Positions 2,881 to 36,958 of a DNA stretch of 64,000 nt are shown piece after piece. The notes beneath the pieces are model-generated. The model worked only from the letters and a program-made list of their open reading frames with translations, was not told the DNA's origin and did no database searches. The stretch is taken from contig OY997640.1 of NCBI GenBank assembly GCA_963921795.1, positions 55,370,613 to 55,434,612 of the forward strand, written 5' to 3'. The stretch comes from Nannobrachium achirus (lineage: Eukaryota > Chordata > Actinopteri > Myctophiformes > Myctophidae). Positions within the stretch are counted from its first letter, which is position 1; every line of letters starts with the position of its first letter. Position numbers and translations under genes: made by a program.

Positions 2881-5800
2881 TGTATGCAACCTCAGTGTTT
2901 GTCATGTGATTCAATGCAGCCAGTCACATTGGAGGACCAATGGCCTGTTTAATTACAGACCGGTTCTACAGCTAATTGCAAAACTAAAGCCTGATTTGTT
3001 CTTGCATGACTGTTACTTATTTTGGCGAGCGACATGTCGTCGATGTGATGAAGCATAAATAAATTGTGCCAAACACCTGCAACTTTTATATTTACCATAT
3101 ACCACTTCTGTAGCTACATACGTAAACTTGGGTTTAAGCAAAAGGTAGTTTGGCAGTACAGTAGGGTGTTAATGGGTGAGAGTGCTATGATTGAACTTTG
3201 CCCACACCTGGCCACTACCTTTCTATGACTTACTCTTTTCTAGTGTGTGCATAAAAGGTATTTGAGGTTGAGGAAAATACTCTGCATTTGAACCATCATA
3301 TTAGAAACAGTATGCAGGTCCAAGTGAGTACAAACAGCTCACAGACCTCAACACGAAGCCTTGAGGAGGCAGGGATTGAACCGAAGGCTTTCCGATTCTA
3401 CCTTATGAGCAACAGCTGCTCCAAATTTAGGAATTCACTTCTCAAGACTATTCTGTGGATAATTTTATTCCATGACTCTCAAGGACGGGGTTGTTAAAAT
3501 GGATGTTATTGTGCTATTCACAATTAATGACATGGAATGGCATGCAGTTTAACATAACTTCCCATCAAAGCACTGTAATGGTACTGTATGCACTTGATGA
3601 AAAAGATTTCTGTGCATTAAGGAACACAAGTGCAATTCTATTCAGTACTCCTTTTGAGTCATGTTCAAATCTATGCAGAACATTCACTGTACAAATCCTG
3701 TGATTAATATCTACAACGCTCAGATCTGCAACGAGAGCCTGAATTAAATAAATGCAATTCAAATGCAAATGTCATAAATACAAAACAGGCTAAACTTAAG
3801 ATTGAACAGAAATCCACAAGACTCAAATGTACTGATTTACTACTCATTCATTTAACATCACAATCAGCAAACCTCATTTTCACCACTTGCTCCATTTACA
3901 GTAGTAAGCCAAAATAAATAACTATAAGCAGACGGTGAAGACAAGAAAATCATTACATTTTAGGAATTATTTAGCCAATGCGCTTCACCAGGGCAACTTA
4001 TGGGTAAGGGCTGTGTTTTGCTGATGGACAAGTGAGTAGTTGATAATGCATACTTAAAGGGAATTAAGCCCATAGCCCAAGAGTAATGGGGCAACCTCAA
4101 ACAATAGCACCACCCAAATCCTTAATGCAACACTTTCAAGTTTAACTTTTATGTAACAAATTGATAATATTGACGGCATATAAGATAGAAGACATCATTT
4201 GGCTAAATGGAAACCATTGCTGATGGAAAAGATGGCTCAAATATGGCATAAGCACTAAGCACATATATTTTTTGTCCCACAAAGTCAAAAAGAGTTAACT
4301 ACTTTGACAATTGAACCGTGGCAAACATCATGACATGGGTAGGAAATGGAAAATGGAACAAGAATGTCTTAACTGCTCTTTGTTAACCTGTTTATGAATA
4401 AAAATATTTACGAAAAAAAGGCTAAGGTGCTTAAGCCATGCATCTGCCATTGGCAAAAACATAAATTGTCTAAATTACTTTTCCATTAAAGGCATTTGCT
4501 GACATCCTTGTCCAGTGTATAATGGTTAGACTACTGCACACACCTGTGATCCTAGAATGATCAGTTTTGAAATTAGGGCCAGGTTAGGAATTTAACAAAA
4601 AGGGTTGGAGAAGTAAGGGACTAAACAAGTCTTTATCTGGACCAAATAAACAAGACTTATGGCATCGGATTTACATCAGCCATTTGGTTTATCTGATATT
4701 CTCTTTCAGAGTGGCTCACGGGTGAGCAGACATGGTGGTCAGTACTCGCCTCTACCTTTCATGCACAGGACAATCTATCCGTTATCCTGTTACTGTTTAG
4801 TGTGAGGGGCAAACCTGGTGAGCCACAGGATGAAGTCATTCAATTACTAACTACACTTATCTAAATGGCAATAAATACCTCTACCTCCAGTACTGTCAGG
4901 ACTTTATAGGTTCAAACATCCCTATACTTATCTTCAGTTCCCTCCCTACTGGATATCACAATATCTGGGCTAAAAGCTTTATCAAAGGAGAGTTGGTGGA
5001 CTTTGCTGTTTCCATGTTATTGAGAAAAACATACTCAATAATTAAACCTGCTATGAGGTTGAACATAGACATACTGTGTATCATCTTCTCTCTTATAGGG
5101 AGGCCTTATGGTTATCAGGTCATCTGAGAAACTGAGCTAAGAATAGAAATGAAAACAGCAGTTTGTCATTTCTACAGATAACATATAAGGCCACAAACAC
5201 TTCCTCAAACAGATAGTGTCTGTGTGTAGGAGGGCATTAGGCTGGTTTCATAGTTGGCTGTTCAGTAAAGTCTCTAAAGGTATTCCTGCATTAACTAAAA
5301 TCATATTCACTAAGCATTGTGCTCATAAGTTCTCTTAAACACAAAGATCAACATAAAACGAAACAAAGAACACAACAACAAAATAAAAAACACAGGCACA
5401 TAGAACCATTAAAAATGGTAGCTTTGCATAGTGAACATCTATGTACAGATACACATTCTTCTTCTGCAACAAAGGCACCAGAGTTCAATGTCCAGAACAG
5501 AGAAGAAAGAAGAAAGGAACATAAATTAAGTGCTGGCCATTTCCACAAGAGCACTTCTTGGCTGATACTTTCCGTGATCTCACATTGCAGGACCTTTGAC
5601 CGCACAGACATTCCGTTTTAACTCTTCCCAATTCAAAATTAGTATGTTTGAGGTAAAAACTTAAATTTGACACACTCATTCTTGATTTACAAATCTTCCA
5701 ACGCTGATCTCAAACCTCAGGCTGATGTGTTCAAGATCTGACCACAGATCATACATTATATACGTGACCCCCTTGGCAACACTGTGTTAAACTCTTAAAG

Positions 5801-6278
5801 CTTAACTTAAGAATAATAAACAATTCAAGTACCGGTTTTCCAAGTCTCACTGCTCAGACTCAATCAAGGCTGCACCACTTTGGCTATTGATTATCAATGA
5901 TAATCACTTGATGAGTTATCTATACTGTAGATTACAATAATATTGATAAATAATATAAATAATTGCAGTTACTAATGAACATTTTCACCATTATGTCTAA
6001 ATGAATACATTTGATTATTTTAGTCAAATACCACATGATGATTACAGGTAGTCTTTAAGACTAGTGGGGTAAATTATTTGTACAATAGTAGGCCATTTTT
6101 GTATTTGAAATAAAATTGCAATTGTCATCCTCAGTGGCCATTCTAAATTAAATTAAATATATTGCAAACATGCCCAATGTTATGAATTATCCATTGTGGA
6201 AACTTAGGATCATGACAGACACCTAAACTCCACTAATTGTGTGGTCCTGACCTGGATGATCCTACACATCCACTCTAT
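2881..6278. other. Intergenic region between tk1 and syngr2 (tail to tail)
   Basis: About 3.4 kb of AT-rich sequence. Apart from one SINE-like remnant (3310-3421) I see no exon, RNA gene or clear transposon. Part of it may be the syngr2 3'UTR, which ends at an unidentified site downstream of 6646. Confidence 0.5.
3310..3421 (-). repeat. tRNA-derived SINE-like remnant
   Basis: Read on the - strand, this contains a GGTTCAATCCC block resembling the B box of an internal RNA polymerase III promoter. It is preceded by a tRNA-like segment (GCTCATAAGGTAG). Body and tail are degenerate. Confidence 0.4.
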
Positions 6279-6540
6279 TAGTAGGGTCTCAAACCAAGGT
6301 TCTGTGAATGTTTTTTATGCAAAACAGATGTTTGCAATGGATTCAGAATCATGAAAAACCCCTAGTTTGACCCCTCATATGTTACTTAAAGCAGATACAT
6401 TTTTTGCTTTTTTTTCCCTGTAATGTAAAGTTAATGGGACACCAACTAAATCTTTTATAAAGGGTCCATAGAGGTCAAATCAATCATCAAAACATCCTTG
6501 CCAGAGGATGGTCACAGAACCTTGGTTTGAGACCCTACTA
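6279..6540. mobile_element. MITE with ~29-bp perfect terminal inverted repeats
   Basis: The 5' end TAGTAGGGTCTCAAACCAAG is matched perfectly in inverse orientation at the 3' end, over about 29 bases. The internal segment (GCAATGGATTCAGAATCATG and following bases) is also found in the MITE at 17128-17609, so the two share an interior but not termini. It may lie within the syngr2 3' flank. The target-site duplication is unclear. Confidence 0.75.
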
Positions 6541-6645
6541 TATGATTGTGTGCCAAGCAGCAGACTATCAACAGGTGACTTGTCTTGGAATACCTACTCA
6601 GTGACTCCTCCACCCAGCGACCCACCCACTCCCGTCCCTCTGGAC

Positions 6646-16377
<9,732 letters not shown>

Positions 16378-28306: not shown

Positions 28307-31300
28307 ACACAGACACCCTTGTGAGCACATTTCTTTTCTTTTCAGTGTTTTTCTTCGTGAAAACTTCACTATATACAGTGTATACAGTGTACATTCATTG
28401 CTATAGGAGCATTTTCTATTGTGCATATGTTTTTTATTTTCATAGTGAGAGAGGGCGGCCATAGCTGAATGGTTGCCTGGGAAGCCAAAGATCCCAGGTT
28501 CCATTACAGGTTTCGACAATGTGTCTTAAGTGTCCCTGAGCAAGACATTTAACCCCTAACTGCTCTCTGAATGCTACAACCAACAGTGACAAAAGATAAC
28601 AACCTAAATTATAATTATAGTGTTTTTTTATTTTTGTTTATTTGTCATTTGGATAATATTGTTTCTACACTATCTTTGTAAGAACACACACACATTCGTA
28701 CCGACTTCCAAAGTGAGAGTCTTGCTCATTGACTGCTGCACCTCACTCTCCACCCGGCACTGGGCTGTGCCAAAGTCTCGTCCGGGTACCATAGCAACAG
28801 GGAAGGAGGCAACCAGGAGCCCGGTGGCTTCAACGGAGCCCTCTTCTCTGTTGTCCAGCAAAAACCGAAAGGTCACAGGGGGGCTGCCCTTCGAAGACCA
28901 GCAGGTAACGTTACCATGGTAATCGAAACCCTCCTTGGAGATAGAGAAAGCGATCCTGGGAGTCGAGAAGTGCACTGGGGTGGGGAGGAGATGGGGGGGG
29001 GGGGGTGAAGGAGAAAGATGGAGCGAGGGACAGAGAAATGGAGATGTATAGATCATTAGTTCTATTCTCTACTGTCCTAAGATTATTCTCCACATTCATA
29101 GAGGCCTTTGCTGTGTTATTTAGACTACTGTTTTCCCCCCTGCACCAACTAGTGTCTGTTCACTGTGCTTTCTATTGCTCAACTACAATTCTCACTTTCT
29201 ATTTCATGTGACCACAACCTACGCAGGTATCTTCCTGGTCTCCCTGTGCCACGTCAGCATGTGCTACATGTGACCTATAAGGTCATGTGGTTAGAAATTA
29301 TCCTAGACAAATGTCATCAACACAAAGGTGCCCTATACAAAGGCAAACAGTAACATTAGTGCTCTAAAGATCATATACGTCACTATGAGGAAGTTAAGAA
29401 GTAAAAACGAAATCTATCAACGAAATACAAATCCCCCTGAATATCCACACAACATCCTCTTTGCAGGGCAGAAGAAGGTAATCCGTCAGTTGCGAGATAG
29501 TATGCGGAGGGCAGAAATGTGTGTACACAAATTGTCATCCTTTACCTTTGACTATCACTTGGACCACGTCACTACTGGAGAATCTACTGTCACCCCCCAC
29601 CATAGTCAGTGTTTTTGCCATGCAAGAATAATTCCCAGCATGCTCTGGGGTCACCCTCTCCACCAGAAGCTTGTTTCCTGCTGGGCGGAGCCAAAGTGGG
29701 GTTGATGATGACAGCTCCTGCATGTTGTAGAACCAGGTGTATGACAGGTGGGATCCCCTGGAGACGTCACAGCTGAGGAGGAGCCGGGACCCCTCAAACA
29801 GGATGGGCGGCGAGGGGTCAGAAGTGACTCTGGTTCCTGAGGCAGGAGCTGAAATAGATGTGATGAGGATGGAGTTTCTTATAACAAGAGACTGACTGTC
29901 CAATAGTGCGACGATTCGTAAGGATCAAAGCTAGTTCAGGGGGCGGTCCCAAGGGAGCGCGCGCGCGGAGGGGGGTGGGTCACTAGGTCCTGCCCCCCCC
30001 TTACCCATAGTTCTTAGGGAAGTCAGATGGTGGGACTCAGTCTTGTTGCATAGCACTGCTGCTGCTACCACGCTGCAGTACACACACAAGTGCCACACTT
30101 GTTGCTTGCAGATAGCTGTGCTGTTGCCCACCGCTTGGAGAGGGTGCCTAACTTGGCTGAGTATTTCTGGCTGTTTCTGCTATTTTTACTATCGCTCAAT
30201 TCATGTTCTTAGCTGCCAAACTAAGAAGCTGTGTTCTTGGCCAGGTTGTATGGGAAGTTTGAGATTGTTATTCTGGTAATCGCTGAATTCTAAACTGCTG
30301 TTTCAAGGTTCAGATTTCTTGCTATCGTTGCTGGTGCCTAGCTGATTTCTGTACTTGCAGTTGTTTGTTGCTAAAGCTATTTCAAAGGTGCTACAGGCTT
30401 GCTAAAGTTGCTAAAGGTAAACTCAGTATCATAGAAGTTGGCTGTGGCTACGGGCTAAATGCTAACTTATTTCGTGCCCTGGTGGGCCTTTACTGGGCTA
30501 CCATGAGTTAAAGTAATCTCAGTTGTTAGGTTTGTCGATAACAATGTCAGTACTTTGCAACGGCGCGGGCCGTATCGGCTAGCGCGGAACAACAGGGTTA
30601 ATGTACAGTCAGCTAGGAGCTAGGTGGCTATTGCTAGCCGGCTATTTCGGTAAGGATGCTGTTAGCTGGTAAATCAATGGCTAGCCATGTCAAGGCATAG
30701 AGCGGCGGCCCGCGTGAAAACATGGCCCCGTAGCAAGTAATGAATCACGCTAGGAGGATTCAGTTTGTAGGTTGCAGGTGTCTGTAAACGGCAGCGTTCA
30801 CCTAGCTCTGAGCTAGCCGAGTCACGTCAAGCGGTGATTTACGGCATGACGTTCGGCAGCGAATACTAAGCGCTGCGTGTGGGAAATGTAGTTCTCTATC
30901 ATGCCAAGCTCGGCGTCGTGCTAGTAGCAAGAGTCGTATGAATTACTAGTCACGTCAGGCCAGGAGGAAGCTTTCGATTCAAGCTTCGCTCGCAGCATGC
31001 TTAATCTAGTTAGTATGGGGCTATATTGCTTCTGCCTCGCCTCGGGTTATGTGTATGTTTTCCTCATTTTGCACTGTCTGGCCGTCTTAACAGCTGCTGC
31101 TTATGAGGTGCTAGTTGCTATACCATAGCAGCTAAATGGTTTCTGTCGCTTCTTGGACCACAGTAGGGCTGCTGCCAGTTACCGTGGCGTAGAAGCCCTC
31201 GCGGGACGAATTATTAAATACAGTAATCGCCTCTCTTTGAGAAGCCTATAAAGGATGTCTGTCTGCGTGGGCTCCTGAGAGGAGGAAACCCGCAAGCTCA

Positions 31301-34300
31301 TAGGTGCCACAGTTTACGTGCAAACAATGTTTTGCTTCCGCTAACGCAAGTCGTGCTGTCTGTCCTGACGTCACCAGTTGAACTCGCTAGTGCATGCAGG
31401 GAATCGTAGTCTTCTCTATATGCTCGGTAGCTCCAGCTAAATATTCTCTTCTGCTACGGTAGGAGCCATCGTTCATTCCAGCCACGAGCTGTCTGTTGAT
31501 GGTCGGCTAGCTTGCAACTCAGAACTCATGTAGCTAAAGAGGTTTGCTAACGTTCCGTAATGACTCTTCAAGCTGCCTATTCCATGGGGGTTGCGTGTGT
31601 CCGTGGTCAGCAGCTACCTAGCATACAGGCTAGCAGAGGGTAACGTCACAAAGCGAAGGGTGGCGCACGGTCTGCGCATTCTGAGCACATGGGTAATGTG
31701 GCTCTCTAGCATTTAACCTCCATGTCACCTGGTCCGTTACGATTCTTTTTCGTTATTATATTATTTTATGTGCACGCGCAGTTTAATAGGGCAGGGATGC
31801 GCATGTATTATCAATGTCTATGCTTCGATTGTGCCCACTGTACAAGCTTAGCATACAGGCTTCGTTTGCTGTTCATGAGGTTTTGCCTGGTCTCGGTTAA
31901 TGCTAGCTTTGCCCAAGCTGCGGCTGCCTGCTGGCATAGCAGCTGATGATGGTTGCCGATGCTACTCTGGTGAAAACGCTAACATCTGTTTATGTTTGCA
32001 GCTCGGGCCAGAAACTGCCGCGTGTCTGTTGGCATCAGGGCGGCGTCGAGTGTGGCAGCGTTGAAGTCATTGGATACTATCCTCTATCGAGCTGCCGTAT
32101 TGTTTCAATCTAAGGTTATAGTTCTGGGTCTCTGCGTATCGCACTGTATGCCCTTGTGGTGTTTCCGTAGCTGCGGCACTCGAGCTAATAATTACAGCTA
32201 AGGCTACTGCTAGTGAAAAAAATGACGAGTTGTTTATCTTTACAATCACATTAAAGCGGCTACAGGACTGTTGCATCATGTTCACCATTGCAGCTCCAGG
32301 ATAAAGGCTGCTAACGCCATGCTTTCTTTTCAGCTCAGGCTAAAGTGCTACATGTCTGTTGCTGCAGCTCACGCCAAAGCGAATACTTGTTGGTTGCTAA
32401 CATTCTGTTTATTATTTCAGCTCCAAGCCGGAGTGGCTGCAGGCCCACTGCTACGTCATCAGGTTATCATGGCAGCTTTAGGCTAAAGCGGCTACATGTA
32501 CCACTAGATCGCGTTTTTCTTTATAGCTTCGGGCCACGGCTGCTACATGTTGCTGCTAACATCATGTTTGTCCTTTCAGCTTCTTGCCGGAGCCGCTGCA
32601 TAGCGGCTGCTACAGCATGCCATCATTGCAGCGTCGCGCTGCAGCGGCTGAGTGTTTTCTGCTAACATGTTTATCTTTATAGTTTCGTCCACTACTGCAT
32701 AATTCCATGAGACCAGTCAGGAGTCGGTTAGCACTGGAGAGGGCATTGATACTACAGCTTCCGCTACTTTTGCCGCTACCATGAGCTGCCAGCCTGCCCG
32801 CCCGCCCTCCCGCCCGCATGCCTGCCCGCCTGCACGCGCCATATTCAGCAGACGGAAGTGGCCTACCGCCAGCCCGCCGCCGCCTGCCTTCCCGCCCGCC
32901 TGCCTTCCCACCTGCCTGTCGGCCCTCCCGTCCGGCTGCCCGCTCGCCCGCTACAGCATCAGTTAATGCTATTACTGCTGCTACCATGAGCATGATCCAG
33001 CGCTGCGTCGTGCTGGAAGCCTGTGGTGCCGGCCCATCTTCCGGAGGCGCTGTCAGGTTGCGACCGTCGTCGCCACCGCCAGGTCACAAGGGAACATGGG
33101 AAGCTGCAGTTCCAGCACCAGCGGTGGGAACTCCATTCCTCTCGCCAGCTGCAGCTTTCCCAGATGCCCTGAGGAGCCACACTCTAGCAGGTAAATAGCA
33201 ACGCATTTGCTTGTTCGATTCTGTGAGCGTTCAGCCGCTCTCTAAGCTTGCTAATAATAGGCAACCATTATAGTTACATAGCAGCGACTTACTTGTACTG
33301 AATGTTGGGCTTTAGCCGCTCTCTAGGCTTGCATAGCTTGCCTTTAAAGGTCAAGACGGGTATCTCGTGGAGATTCTCATATGTGCAGCAGCAGACTCTG
33401 CAGCAGAGCGCTCCGTGGGCTGCGAAAATGTTCTCTGTGATCCTAAAAATCAGCGACCTTAGGCGTGGTTTCCTTGTTATGGTCAGCTAAAGCTAAGATG
33501 GTAATTTCTGCGGCAAGCACATGCGGTCACCAAGGCCAGGCTTAAGATGCGACTAGCACATGGCCTCTGAAGATTGCAGCTCGCAGTTTAAGCAGGGAAG
33601 GTACACCAGTGTCAGTCGCAGAACTAACTCTCCCTTCTGTCCTTTCATGTCCATGCTGAACACCGGGCTGTCTGCCCGACGTCCTCGTCTCACGACCCCC
33701 GGAGAGAGCTGCCAGATTTGCGGCCCGCCCCTCTTCACTCTGCATTCTCTCCGGATCGGAGCAGCCACACCACCAGCACTTCTGGTGCCCTCAGCTAACT
33801 CAAGATCCTGCACGCCAAGCTATCAAGCACACACAACACAGGACTGACCGAAGCGTAATGGTTCCAAGCTGGAGTTGGACGCGTTTCAGTTAACGCTTCT
33901 GCTGCTGATGCTAATAGTGCTGCAGGCACTATTAACAGGGTTGTTCCATAGGGTTCATTTTGCTGCTTCTGCTGCGTTACTCGGGGCACGCGCCCCTGAT
34001 AGGTTGCATGTTTTATTTGCTGCTTCTGTTGCGTTACTCGGGGCACGCGCCCCTATCATGCAAAAGCTAGGTGGTTGCTGGGGTGTTAGTTAGGTAGGAT
34101 GTGAAGCTGTATGGCGCTGTAGTTATATGAATTAAAGGTTTCATCGCTGCTTCTGGTTCTGCTGTCTATATATATATACGTCCATGTTGCTGCTCCCGCT
34201 TTTCTCTAGGGTGTTTTAGTATGGCTTCAGTCAGATTGCAGTATATCGTTATAGTCAGCAGTACCACCTTCCTCACCGTTGGTTCGGTCTGCCAGCTGCT

Positions 34301-36958
34301 AACATTCTTAATTATTAAATTGCTTTAGCAGTACTTATAGCGTTTTTGGCAAGCTGCCAATATCATTGCTTAGTATTTTGCTTAGTAATATTCGCTCTGC
34401 CAGATGCTAATATGCTTAATTATTATTTTTGCGTTAGCAGGAAAGGCAGTTCATAGTTTGCCCCGCAGTAATGATAACTTAATCGCTAGAGTCACAGCAG
34501 AGCTGCCTTCCTCGCAGTTGGCTAGCACTGGCATGGGATTCTGAGATTTTGGCGTGCTTTGGGGGTTTGTAGTTTTGGGGGGTATCGGGCCAGGGCTCGC
34601 TGTAACTAAATTATGCCCTCGATGCTCATGGTAACATGAGGATCGTGGGTTCAGCGAGCCATGGCCCGAGGCAGAACCCCATGCCAAACCATGCTAACTT
34701 AGGCTATAGATTCTATGCTGTCTTATAGTAGAGCTAAGGTAGGCTGCCAATACTATGCGCTTAGATATAGGCTTAGATTCTATGCTGTCTCTATATTAGG
34801 GTGCTCAATATGCCATGCTGTGTGATGCTTGCTTTCTGCCTTCATTCTGGTCAATAAAGTATATCTTAACCCAAGTGATCGTCTCCTGAAATAGTGCGAC
34901 GATTCGTAAGGATCAAAGCTAGTTCAGGGGGCGGTCCCAAGGGAGCGCGCGCGCGGAGGGGGGTGGGTCACTAGGTCCTGCCCCCCCCTTACCCATAGTT
35001 CTTAGGGAAGTCAGATGGTGGGACTCAGTCTTGTTGCATAGCACTGCCCCGCCACCACCCCAGCGCCACCTTCAGGTTCTGCCTTTGATCCCCCTCGGGG
35101 GGTATCGGGCCAGGGCTCGCTGTAACTAAATTATGCCCTCGATGCTCATGGTAACATGAGGATCGTGGGTTCAGCGAGCCATGGCCCGAGGCAGAACCCC
35201 ATGCCAAACCATGCTAACTTAGGCTATAGATTCTATGCTGTCTTATAGTAGAGCTAAGGTAGGCTGCCAATACTATGCGCTTAGATATAGGCTTAGATTC
35301 TATGCTGTCTCTATATTAGGGTGCTCAATATGCCATGCTGTGTGATGCTTGCTTTCTGCCTTCATTCTGGTCAATAAAGTATATCTTAACCCAAGTGATC
35401 GTCTCCTGAAATAAAAATGTTAGGATATTTGTGTAAAAACAATAGAGGAGGGAGACCACTGTAAAATACAAAAGAATAGTTTCAATGCCTTCAAACAGTA
35501 ATTGGCTTAAAAAATGATAGACTATACTCAGGAACACGTTTCGAGTATCTTTCTTGGGCAGCCTTTTGTTTGTTTGTTTGCCAAAACAAAAGTTGGGGGA
35601 AAAAAAGAACAGTGGTCTCTCTCCTCTATTGTTTTTGCATTGGATTTTTTGCCTCCTTGGGAACCCAAGGAAGGACTCTCCACCTTTTTGTGTGGCACTC
35701 TTTCTGTGCCAAATGCCAAAATGGCTCCAAGGTTCATGTGCCACCCATGATTTTTGATTTTTTTTTTGATTTTTTTTGAAAATTTTGATTTTTTTTTTTT
35801 TTTTTTTACACAAAAAACACAAAAAAAAGAAAAGACGTCATTGGCACTGAATGAGTTTAGTGTGTTACCATGTAAAATGTTGGAATGTATCTCATGCCAT
35901 GTATGGCATATTACTCACTTACTACCATCAGCCTGATGCTGTTGCTCACTGCCGTGCCCCGCTTTGTCGTCGCCTTGCAGTGGTATGACCCTTCCGTTCC
36001 CATGGCAACCTTCAAGGAGAAGTTGGAGAACGTTGCCATTTGGTCACCTTGGAGACCGGCCCTTGTAGCAACCAGGTGATCGCTGTCCTTCACCAGCTGG
36101 TAGGTGATTGGTGTAGAGGAGTCATGTGACTTACAATGGAATGCCACTTTCGAGCCCAGGTAGGCCATCTCTGGACCAGTCAGCAGCACTGGAGAAAGCG
36201 ATCCACCTACTAACGGAGTAGACAGGATTACCTAAAAGCAGTTTGGACCCTTGATGCACCACAAGCTTAGCCATAAACCTGATGCTTAGGCATCTACAGG
36301 CAACTCAAGATGAGTGACATTTATCCTCAGTGAGAATTGTTTATGTCAAATCTTAAATGATGATGGCAGAGGAAACCATGCAACCTTCATTTCCCTCTCC
36401 ACCTCCTACATAGAGCTACTGTATACTGCACATATACACACCCCTTCACAAAGTGCAGATTAGTATTGTAAATTATTGTTCCTTTTTTGCTCCAACCCAA
36501 GAAAATAAAGTCAACATTGTTTTTTGTAGAAGTTCCAAAGATTCTGTGATAACTGGATAAATGGGAGTCATTAAGAGTTTTGTTAAGTACTGTTTGTTTT
36601 GAACTGTCTGCAGGCTAGATATAAATACTGGACAAAATGTGGAAAGTTTTCACAAAAGCTTTCACTGATTGCGTTCACAATGTATCAACCTACAATGCCA
36701 TCACAATACATAATAGTATAGTAAAATATAGTACTCAACTGTGTAGTAACAAAAAAAGAAAGAGCCAGATTACTGGTTTGATAAACTTACTTGTCTGGGA
36801 GACAAAACTTGCCAAAACTGTAAAAGAAAAAGACGAACAAAACAATGTTTTCATAATATTAGTCTATTAAATGACTGGTTAAAATCGAAATGTCTTCTTT
36901 AACAATCTTTTCACTCACCCAAAACTGGCAAGAAATAAAGTGCCTCTAGCTTCGTCAT
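25489..36958 (-). CDS. Receptor B: PECAM1/Fc-receptor-like Ig-superfamily receptor, four Ig domains, tyrosine-free tail
   Basis: Ten exons (- strand): 36958-36919, 36817-36791, 36209-35919, 29848-29546, 28974-28702, 28215-27877, 26695-26585, 26234-26207, 25796-25703, 25509-25489; 1527 bases, 508 aa, all phases agree. The signal peptide (MTKLEALYFLPVLVLASFV) is split; its second exon is 27 nt, the size reported for PECAM1. Ig domains lie at about 23-119, 120-220, 221-311 and 312-424, each with a cysteine pair (AFHCK/YHCKA, LSCDV/YSCMA, VTCWS/AQCRV, LHCNL/YRCRA). PITYQLVKDSDHL in domain 1 recalls PECAM1. One transmembrane segment (about 431-453) precedes a ~55-aa Ser/Thr-rich tail with no tyrosine, ending TIEITV. 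Domains 2-4, the transmembrane exon and a 28-nt tail exon parallel receptor A, indicating tandem duplication. The ~6-kb intron after domain 1 holds the 5.5-kb tandem element. Confidence 0.88.
27672..27815. repeat. (TATACA)n followed by (GTGC)n
   Basis: About nine ATATAC units (to 27735), then GTGC units to 27815, in the receptor B intron between domain 4 and the transmembrane exon. Confidence 0.95.
28244..28301. repeat. (GA)n microsatellite next to a receptor B exon acceptor
   Basis: In the transcript this is a ~58-nt CU tract starting about 28 bases upstream of the acceptor of the domain 4 exon, so it may act as an extended polypyrimidine tract. Confidence 0.95.
28453..28575 (+). repeat. 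tRNA-derived SINE
   Basis: TAGCTGAATGG fits a Pol III A box and GGTTCCATTAC a B box, spaced as in tRNA. A body follows with CCTGAGCAAGACATTTAACC, typical of widespread teleost SINE cores. Truncated; lies in a receptor B intron. Confidence 0.7.
32230..32700 (+). repeat. Degenerate repeats carrying splice-acceptor-like motifs inside the long element
   Basis: At least five diverged units of about 80-110 bases contain GCTAAC, then a T-rich run ending TTTCAGCT, TTGCAGCT or TTATAGCTT, then a GGCC/GCCGGAG block and GCTGCTACATG. Further versions occur near 31978-32035. The pyrimidine run plus CAG looks like a 3' splice site repeated many times. Confidence 0.5.
32785..32955. repeat. CCCGCCTGC-type minisatellite inside the long element
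   Basis: Strongly strand-asymmetric, C-rich array of imperfect CCCGCC/CCTGCC units. It creates spurious Pro/Ala-rich and Gly/Arg-rich frames on the two strands. Confidence 0.75.
33957..34056 (+). repeat. Tandem duplication, 59-bp period, inside the long element
   Basis: The unit TGCTGCTTCTGCTGCGTTAC followed by TCGGGGCACGCGCCCCT is present twice with one internal difference. Each unit contains the dyad GGGGCACGCGCCCC. Confidence 0.8.
34577..34680 (+). ncRNA. Candidate structured RNA domain of the tandem element (copy 1)
   Basis: Outer stem 34586-34602 (CGGGCCAGGGCTCGCTG) pairs with 34652-34668 (CAGCGAGCCATGGCCCG) over 17 bp with one mismatch. Inside, CCC/GGG, CGAT/ATCG and CTCATG/CATGAG stack to a GTAA loop (34631-34634), a GNRA-type tetraloop. 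Flanking GGGG (from 34577) and CCCC (to 34680) could extend the stem. Function is unknown and expression is not shown. Identical structure occurs at 35097-35200. Confidence 0.5.
34894..35409 (+). mobile_element. Short copy (516 bp) of the tandem element
   Basis: Directly follows the long copy after AATA (34890-34893) and is followed by AATA (35410-35413). It consists of the same 154-base head (34894-35047), a unique 49-base centre (35048-35096) and the same 313-base tail (35097-35409), including AATAAA at 35373-35378. It could be a long terminal repeat, an internally deleted derivative, or the basic unit into which 4.5 kb was acquired. Confidence 0.7.
35097..35200 (+). ncRNA. Candidate structured RNA domain of the tandem element (copy 2)
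   Basis: Same fold as at 34577-34680, shifted by 520 bases: outer stem 35106-35122 with 35172-35188 and a GTAA-capped inner stem. No base differences from copy 1 were noticed. Confidence 0.5.

Follow-up and report, generated by a model that had tools for sequence, protein, structure and literature searches.

To our knowledge, circle making and insertion by retrotransposons that use a tyrosine recombinase (YR) are known mainly from structure. LARD-type elements are non-autonomous LTR retrotransposons whose terminal repeats enclose a large non-coding interior and which are mobilised in trans; they go with LTRs, a DDE integrase and target duplications. Among YR retrotransposons, Ngaro, PAT and VIPER possess split direct repeats, with A1 at the 5' end and B1, A2 and B2 following towards the 3' end (PMC9210276, PMC4157794, PMC8547959, PMC6681497, PMC8969392), and elements of the DIRS order are described as lacking target duplications (PMC8969392), as far as the available parts of these papers go. 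Isolated AB units, likened to solo LTRs, are reported for the Ngaro-like elements of Cafeteria in the available part of the respective paper (PMC8547959). One non-autonomous relative was met in the accessible portions of this literature, namely SIRE of Trypanosoma cruzi, which is described there as a truncated non-autonomous version of VIPER and joins 185 bp from the 5' portion of VIPER, via about 30 bp that belong to SIRE itself, to 220 bp from the 3' end, a composition equivalent to A2-B2 (PMC6681497). For Ectocarpus, the part of the source at hand counts 15 Ngaro families and discusses non-autonomous families as a general matter (PMC12477816). Within the accessible portions of the open-licence literature, no description was found of a large gene-less Ngaro/DIRS-type member with all four repeats.

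A stretch of 64,000 nucleotides from Nannobrachium achirus (hereafter the window) harbours an element of 5.5 kb which is very probably a tyrosine-recombinase retrotransposon of the Ngaro/PAT type, large, non-autonomous and built on split direct repeats. Its layout and presumed mechanism are those already known, and the large gene-less member looks like a new variant of them. An element of this build may be misread as two unknown elements in tandem, and an earlier note on the window had indeed described a head-to-tail pair that it could place in no known class.

Anatomy of the element

The element is composed of the following parts, all on the + strand, which would be the strand of the element judging by an AATAAAG close to the right end and by the similar build of an autonomous-looking relative (L049, described below).

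29903..35410, +: whole element, 5,508 nt, ATAGTGCG...CTCCTGAA; ends taken from 20 left ends, 21 right ends and 7 empty-site copies
29903..30059, +: A1, left split direct repeat, GC-rich, 157 nt, identical to A2
30060..34576, +: centre, 4,517 nt, apparently non-coding; common to 18 complete fetched copies, in L013 in part
34577..34890, +: B1, internal copy of the right repeat, 314 nt, with AATAAAG and terminal TGAA, identical to B2
34887..34896, +: B1/A2 junction TGAA|ATAGTG, where the right terminus meets the left one as in a circle
34891..35047, +: A2, internal copy of the left repeat, 157 nt, identical to A1
35048..35096, +: 49-nt spacer between A2 and B2, present at 98-100% identity in all 20 fetched loci
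35097..35410, +: B2, right terminal repeat, 314 nt, with AATAAAG and terminal TGAA; end fixed by empty sites
35097..35200 (same letters in B1, 34577-34680), +: strong predicted RNA hairpin at the start of B, from folding against shuffles

The matching ends of 154 and 313 bases claimed earlier are real. Positions 29902-30059 equal 34890-35047 over 158 nt, and 34577-34893 equal 35097-35413 over 317 nt, in both cases with no mismatch and with the AATA found at 29902, 34890 and 35410 counted in; without AATA, these blocks are the two of the earlier note. The two centres, of 49 and 4,517 nt, are also different, as had been said: a BLAST comparison of the short one with the window returned, besides itself, three 11-nt matches, none of them inside the long centre. 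The resulting order (A1, 4,517-nt centre, B1, A2, 49 nt, B2) is the split direct repeat layout A1-internal-B1A2B2, and the previous remark that a large insert splits one terminal unit describes such repeats exactly.

The hairpin at the start of B has a predicted energy of -63.8 kcal/mol, where 200 shuffles average -35.7 (z = -7.87), and one might guess at a recognition structure. A promoter may lie in A1. The inverted arms ATCGTC / GACGAT, which surround the B1/A2 junction, were weighed as possible half-sites of the recombinase and set aside as a weak idea, the single-stranded DNA fold being no better than that of shuffles (z = -0.14). Within the centre, degenerate repeats that look like splice acceptors (TGTTTAT..TTTCAGCTC) occur at 31985-32581; the distances among three of these are 127 and 159 nt. 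There was no Rfam match in the whole window at gathering level, nor in 29880-35430 at E up to 1, and ARAGORN, run with bacterial settings, detected no tRNA anywhere in the window.

Distribution in the host genome

The host assembly comprises 1.66 Gb in 564 contigs, and scoring among 648 candidates gave at least 40 copies of the 516-nt A2-49-B2 unit, 38 of the 40 scored copies being directly preceded by a B1 match. A 30-nt pattern spanning B1/A2 and allowing up to 3 mismatches recovered 242 junctions genome-wide (130 + 112); a reversed control pattern recovered none. From the 39 scored places besides the window, 20 loci were fetched, taken from the top of the match ranking, so that the sample leans to the youngest copies. 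The whole layout A1-centre-B1-A2-49-B2, with the same centre (in L013 in part), is present in 18 of these 20. Both centres therefore belong to each complete copy, and the head-to-tail pair of two elements gives way to a single one. These loci together with the 242 junctions also exclude a misassembly private to the window, which had been named as a possible refutation. The two incomplete loci are L010, a lone A-49-B unit that may have arisen by recombination between A1 and A2, and L016, in which some 5 kb are present to the left of the centre match, yet there is no A1 and the centre lacks its first 1.86 kb; its left part is truncated, rearranged or misjoined.

Including the window copy, 19 complete elements can be compared, which range in length from 4,899 to 5,508 nt, with centres of 3,913-4,522 nt. 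Outside gaps, the centres are pairwise 98.5-99.8% identical in 18 of the 19; that of L013, at 88-90%, is rearranged or divergent. The centres split into two subfamilies, the smaller being formed by the window copy, L009, L015 and L018. The last of these combines a centre of the window-type subfamily with A repeats of the 158-nt type, as in the other subfamily, which is possibly a case of recombination between the two. In addition, two B1/A2 junctions lie 519 nt apart (G000:C8:53582462 and C8:53582981), which suggests a copy with an extra A-49-B unit, that is, a real tandem of the short unit.

Within each copy the repeats are alike. A1 and A2 are identical or show 1 difference in all 19 complete copies, and when A1/A2 and B1/B2 are taken together 14 copies have no difference and the other five have one in all. 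Such repeats point to recent movement, in line with the recent activity suspected previously for a mobile element. Ten minority states are common to both repeats of a copy (3 in B, and 7 in A that represent one indel shared by seven copies), and five occur in one repeat only. The shared states and the identity of the repeats fit a scheme in which both repeats would be regenerated from one template at insertion.

Termini and target sites

All 20 readable left ends begin with ATAGTGCG and all 21 right ends close with CTCCTGAA, the bases outside being variable in both cases. The flanks of 20 copies (L016 dropped) were joined and matched to uninterrupted paralogous sites within the fetched sequence, which were available for seven of them: L012, L014, L019, L020, L021, L022 and L026. 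Identity to the best paralogue was 99% for L026, 96% for L019 and 81-91% for the other five; for L012, the gap is shifted or ambiguous in some of the weaker paralogue alignments. Each of the seven usable empty sites fits insertion of ATAGTG...CCTGAA with zero duplicated bases. The AATA that had been noticed before, between and after the supposed copies is thus present and is, as one of the two earlier suggestions had it, terminal in nature, ATA being the left terminus and the A after TGA part of the right one; the other suggestion, a target duplication, fails on the empty sites and on the flanks, since AATA stands on both sides in two of the 20 copies with both flanks readable.

The target can be written A|HT. 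Compared with the composition of the window, A is found at -1 in 16 of 20 (p = 4e-6) and T at +2 in 20 of 21 (p = 1.5e-10), and G at +1 is absent from all 21 (p = 0.006). The element termini are not TG..CA, and the motif A-N-T is common to element and target at the crossover, the B1/A2 junction reading TGA-A|AT-AG. This shared motif would suit a tyrosine recombinase acting on a circle.

Coding capacity

The longest listed open reading frame inside the window copy encodes 127 aa, a minus-strand frame of 165 aa merely crossing the right end of the element. Stop-free runs reach 157 codons in the window centre and up to 214 in other copies (L021), whereas 200 mononucleotide shuffles gave runs averaging 139 codons and reaching 270 at most. 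A tblastn search of the centres with the RT and YR frames of L049 gave a best E of 0.19, the control on L049 itself recovering both frames, and the four centre ORFs submitted to Pfam had no match. No gag, RT, RNase H or YR is recognisable in the element, which by these searches appears to be non-autonomous and without recognisable coding capacity, a short or unusual protein being still conceivable. The encoded RT/RNase H and YR that characterise autonomous members are absent, so the element is claimed only as their non-autonomous relative, and it would have to borrow its enzymes from other elements.

Tyrosine-recombinase elements of the same genome

The Pfam phage-integrase model has at least 51 matches in the assembly (139 of 1,097 candidates scored). 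With one of the matching proteins as query there are at least 115, at 32 to 100% identity (114 of 704 candidates scored), and in many of them the open frame measures about 357 aa. By our own grouping, the lineages besides that of L049 match this query at about 62, 60, 58, 52, 49, 45 and 32% identity. Among the YR elements read, an RT frame lies upstream of the YR in L049, L030 and L031; L038 shows no RT segment longer than 120 aa in the stretch read. In L049 the RT frame measures 538 aa (Pfam RVT_1) and the YR frame 358 aa (Pfam phage-integrase); the RNase H part of the former, which has no Pfam match, is our own reading, and neither frame has an MT match in Pfam. Downstream repeats of the form B1-A2...B2 are present, with the junction AGTGAA|ATGTTG, and no A1 appeared in the 1.7 kb read on the upstream side of the RT frame. 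By its domain order and repeats, L049 may be called Ngaro-like. Beyond B1A2...B2, the region 4297-6957 of this locus contains a repeat with a spacing of 726 nt, whose two members, 5010-5240 and 5736-5966, each hold the end of B and the beginning of A, and the 498-nt stretch between the repeats recurs at 7704-8201.

The 5.5-kb element resembles L049 in several respects. The B repeats of both end in AATAAA...AACCCAA...TGAA, so that AATAAA lies near the B end, and both share the TGAA|AT of the junction. They differ in their terminal sequences, and there is no significant nucleotide similarity between them (best E 0.042 over 21 nt). A fold confined to the final 398 nt of B in L049 gave no comparable hairpin (z = -0.94), so the B hairpin is not established as a feature common to both. 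The A|HT target preference is absent from right ends of the L049 lineage, where, among the B ends that do not lead into A, T stands at +2 in 2 of 9, versus 20 of 21 in the present family (p = 1.3e-4). Since that lineage differs in end sequences and right-end bases, another YR lineage is the likelier helper. No helper with matching A or B ends was found, the ends compared being those of the L049 lineage. An exact A end followed by A or G, that is, by neither known centre, occurs at two places, and in both cases a listed junction lies about 4.8 kb away (a diverged A would escape this search). For 119 copy positions, which consist of 100 listed of the 242 junctions and 19 scored copies and amount to about half of the 242, none has a YR match within 57 kb on the same contig, against the at least 115 YR matches of the genome.

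Across L029-L048, B ends of the L049 lineage are followed by A2 in some loci and by unrelated sequence in others, and on the two sides of the junction the arms GTGTGATCTT/AAGATCACAC give way jointly to GTGTGGTCT/AGACCACAC; a conserved inverted recombinase site is possible.

Classification and alternative explanations

The assignment to YR retrotransposons, which supplies the class that the earlier note could not name, is based on the split direct repeats and on insertion free of target-site duplication. A classical LTR retrotransposon or endogenous retrovirus has the order LTR-internal-LTR, TG..CA ends and a target duplication of 4-6 nt, and is rejected here by layout, termini and empty sites alike, as the earlier note had supposed from the layout. 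That two insertions of one terminal unit (LTR-like or a DNA element), with different centres and AATA target duplications, came to lie head to tail is scarcely credible: AATA before, between and after both units in the window would speak for it, but the same two-unit layout with the same two centres recurs in the fetched loci (the long centre of L013 in part), few copies have AATA on both sides, all seven empty sites fit no duplication and the termini are not TG..CA.

Cryptons, by contrast, leave no target duplication, and a Crypton-like DNA transposon that inserts in tandem with no RNA step would explain the empty sites and a junction that looks circle-derived. Cryptons likewise use a YR, according to the part of the source at hand (PMC3212892). 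This origin is nevertheless very unlikely, given that A1-internal-B1A2-49-B2 in 18 of 20 loci, with alike repeats and shared minority variants, fits regeneration from one template, and that YR elements read in this genome have an upstream RT frame (L049, L030 and L031; L038 shows no RT segment longer than 120 aa in the stretch read). It is also highly improbable that the copies are the decayed leftovers of an autonomous Ngaro and not a family spreading without genes. Such decay would account for the lack of recognisable coding capacity; however, the centres (L013 excepted) are nearly identical, no remnant of the RT or YR of L049 is found in them and the repeats of a copy differ by one base at most, which indicates that the sampled copies, leaning young as they do, did multiply in the gene-less state.

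As a non-autonomous YR retrotransposon, the element has the layout A1-[internal]-B1A2B2 of the Ngaro-like elements of Xenopus and Cafeteria and of L049 (where B1-A2...B2 is seen), and its lone A-49-B unit L010 is akin to the isolated AB units of Cafeteria; it departs from Ngaro-like elements in the lack of recognisable gag, RT, RNase H and YR and in its own terminal sequences. SIRE is a counterpart of A2-49-B2, although it consists of the A2-B2 piece alone, whereas here a centre of 3.9-4.5 kb and all four repeats are retained. With LARD elements the shared traits are the large non-coding centre between terminal repeats and, presumably, mobilisation in trans, and the differences are in layout and empty sites. 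It can be proposed, tentatively and with considerable doubt, that an undescribed class of large non-autonomous 'LARD-like' Ngaro elements exists, gene-less and 4.9-5.5 kb long, with a non-coding centre of 3.9-4.5 kb and four split repeats, which would parasitise Ngaro enzymes with different end sequences, the architecture and the TGAA|AT core alone being common. If so, the shared centre and the B hairpin would carry the recognition signals.

A possible cycle

The cycle envisaged here follows the model for split-direct-repeat elements. Transcription would start in A1 and stop past the AATAAAG of B2, which would yield an RNA without the outermost bases. A reverse transcriptase supplied in trans would copy this RNA, and the B1/A2 segment, in which both termini are joined, could act as a bridging template by which the ends are restored and a circle with TGAA|ATAGTG is formed. 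A YR, likewise supplied in trans, would then recombine the circle junction with a host A|HT site, so that one copy enters without target duplication. As the element seems to be gene-less, the cis requirements of its spread can reside nowhere but in A, B, the 49-nt spacer and the shared non-coding centre. The family is young, has at least 242 junctions and combines exact ends with readable empty sites and a target preference, which makes it a clean test case for such a scheme.

Surroundings of the window copy

A minus-strand ORF with an Ig domain (29535-29903; Pfam Ig_3, E 7.8e-12) adjoins the start of the element at 29903. Its likely splice acceptor, at about 29849, lies some 50 nt from the element, which would accordingly sit antisense in an intron. 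About 20 nt to the right of the element, a 31-nt inverted repeat (35432-35462 / 35609-35639, 94%) is possibly a small MITE.
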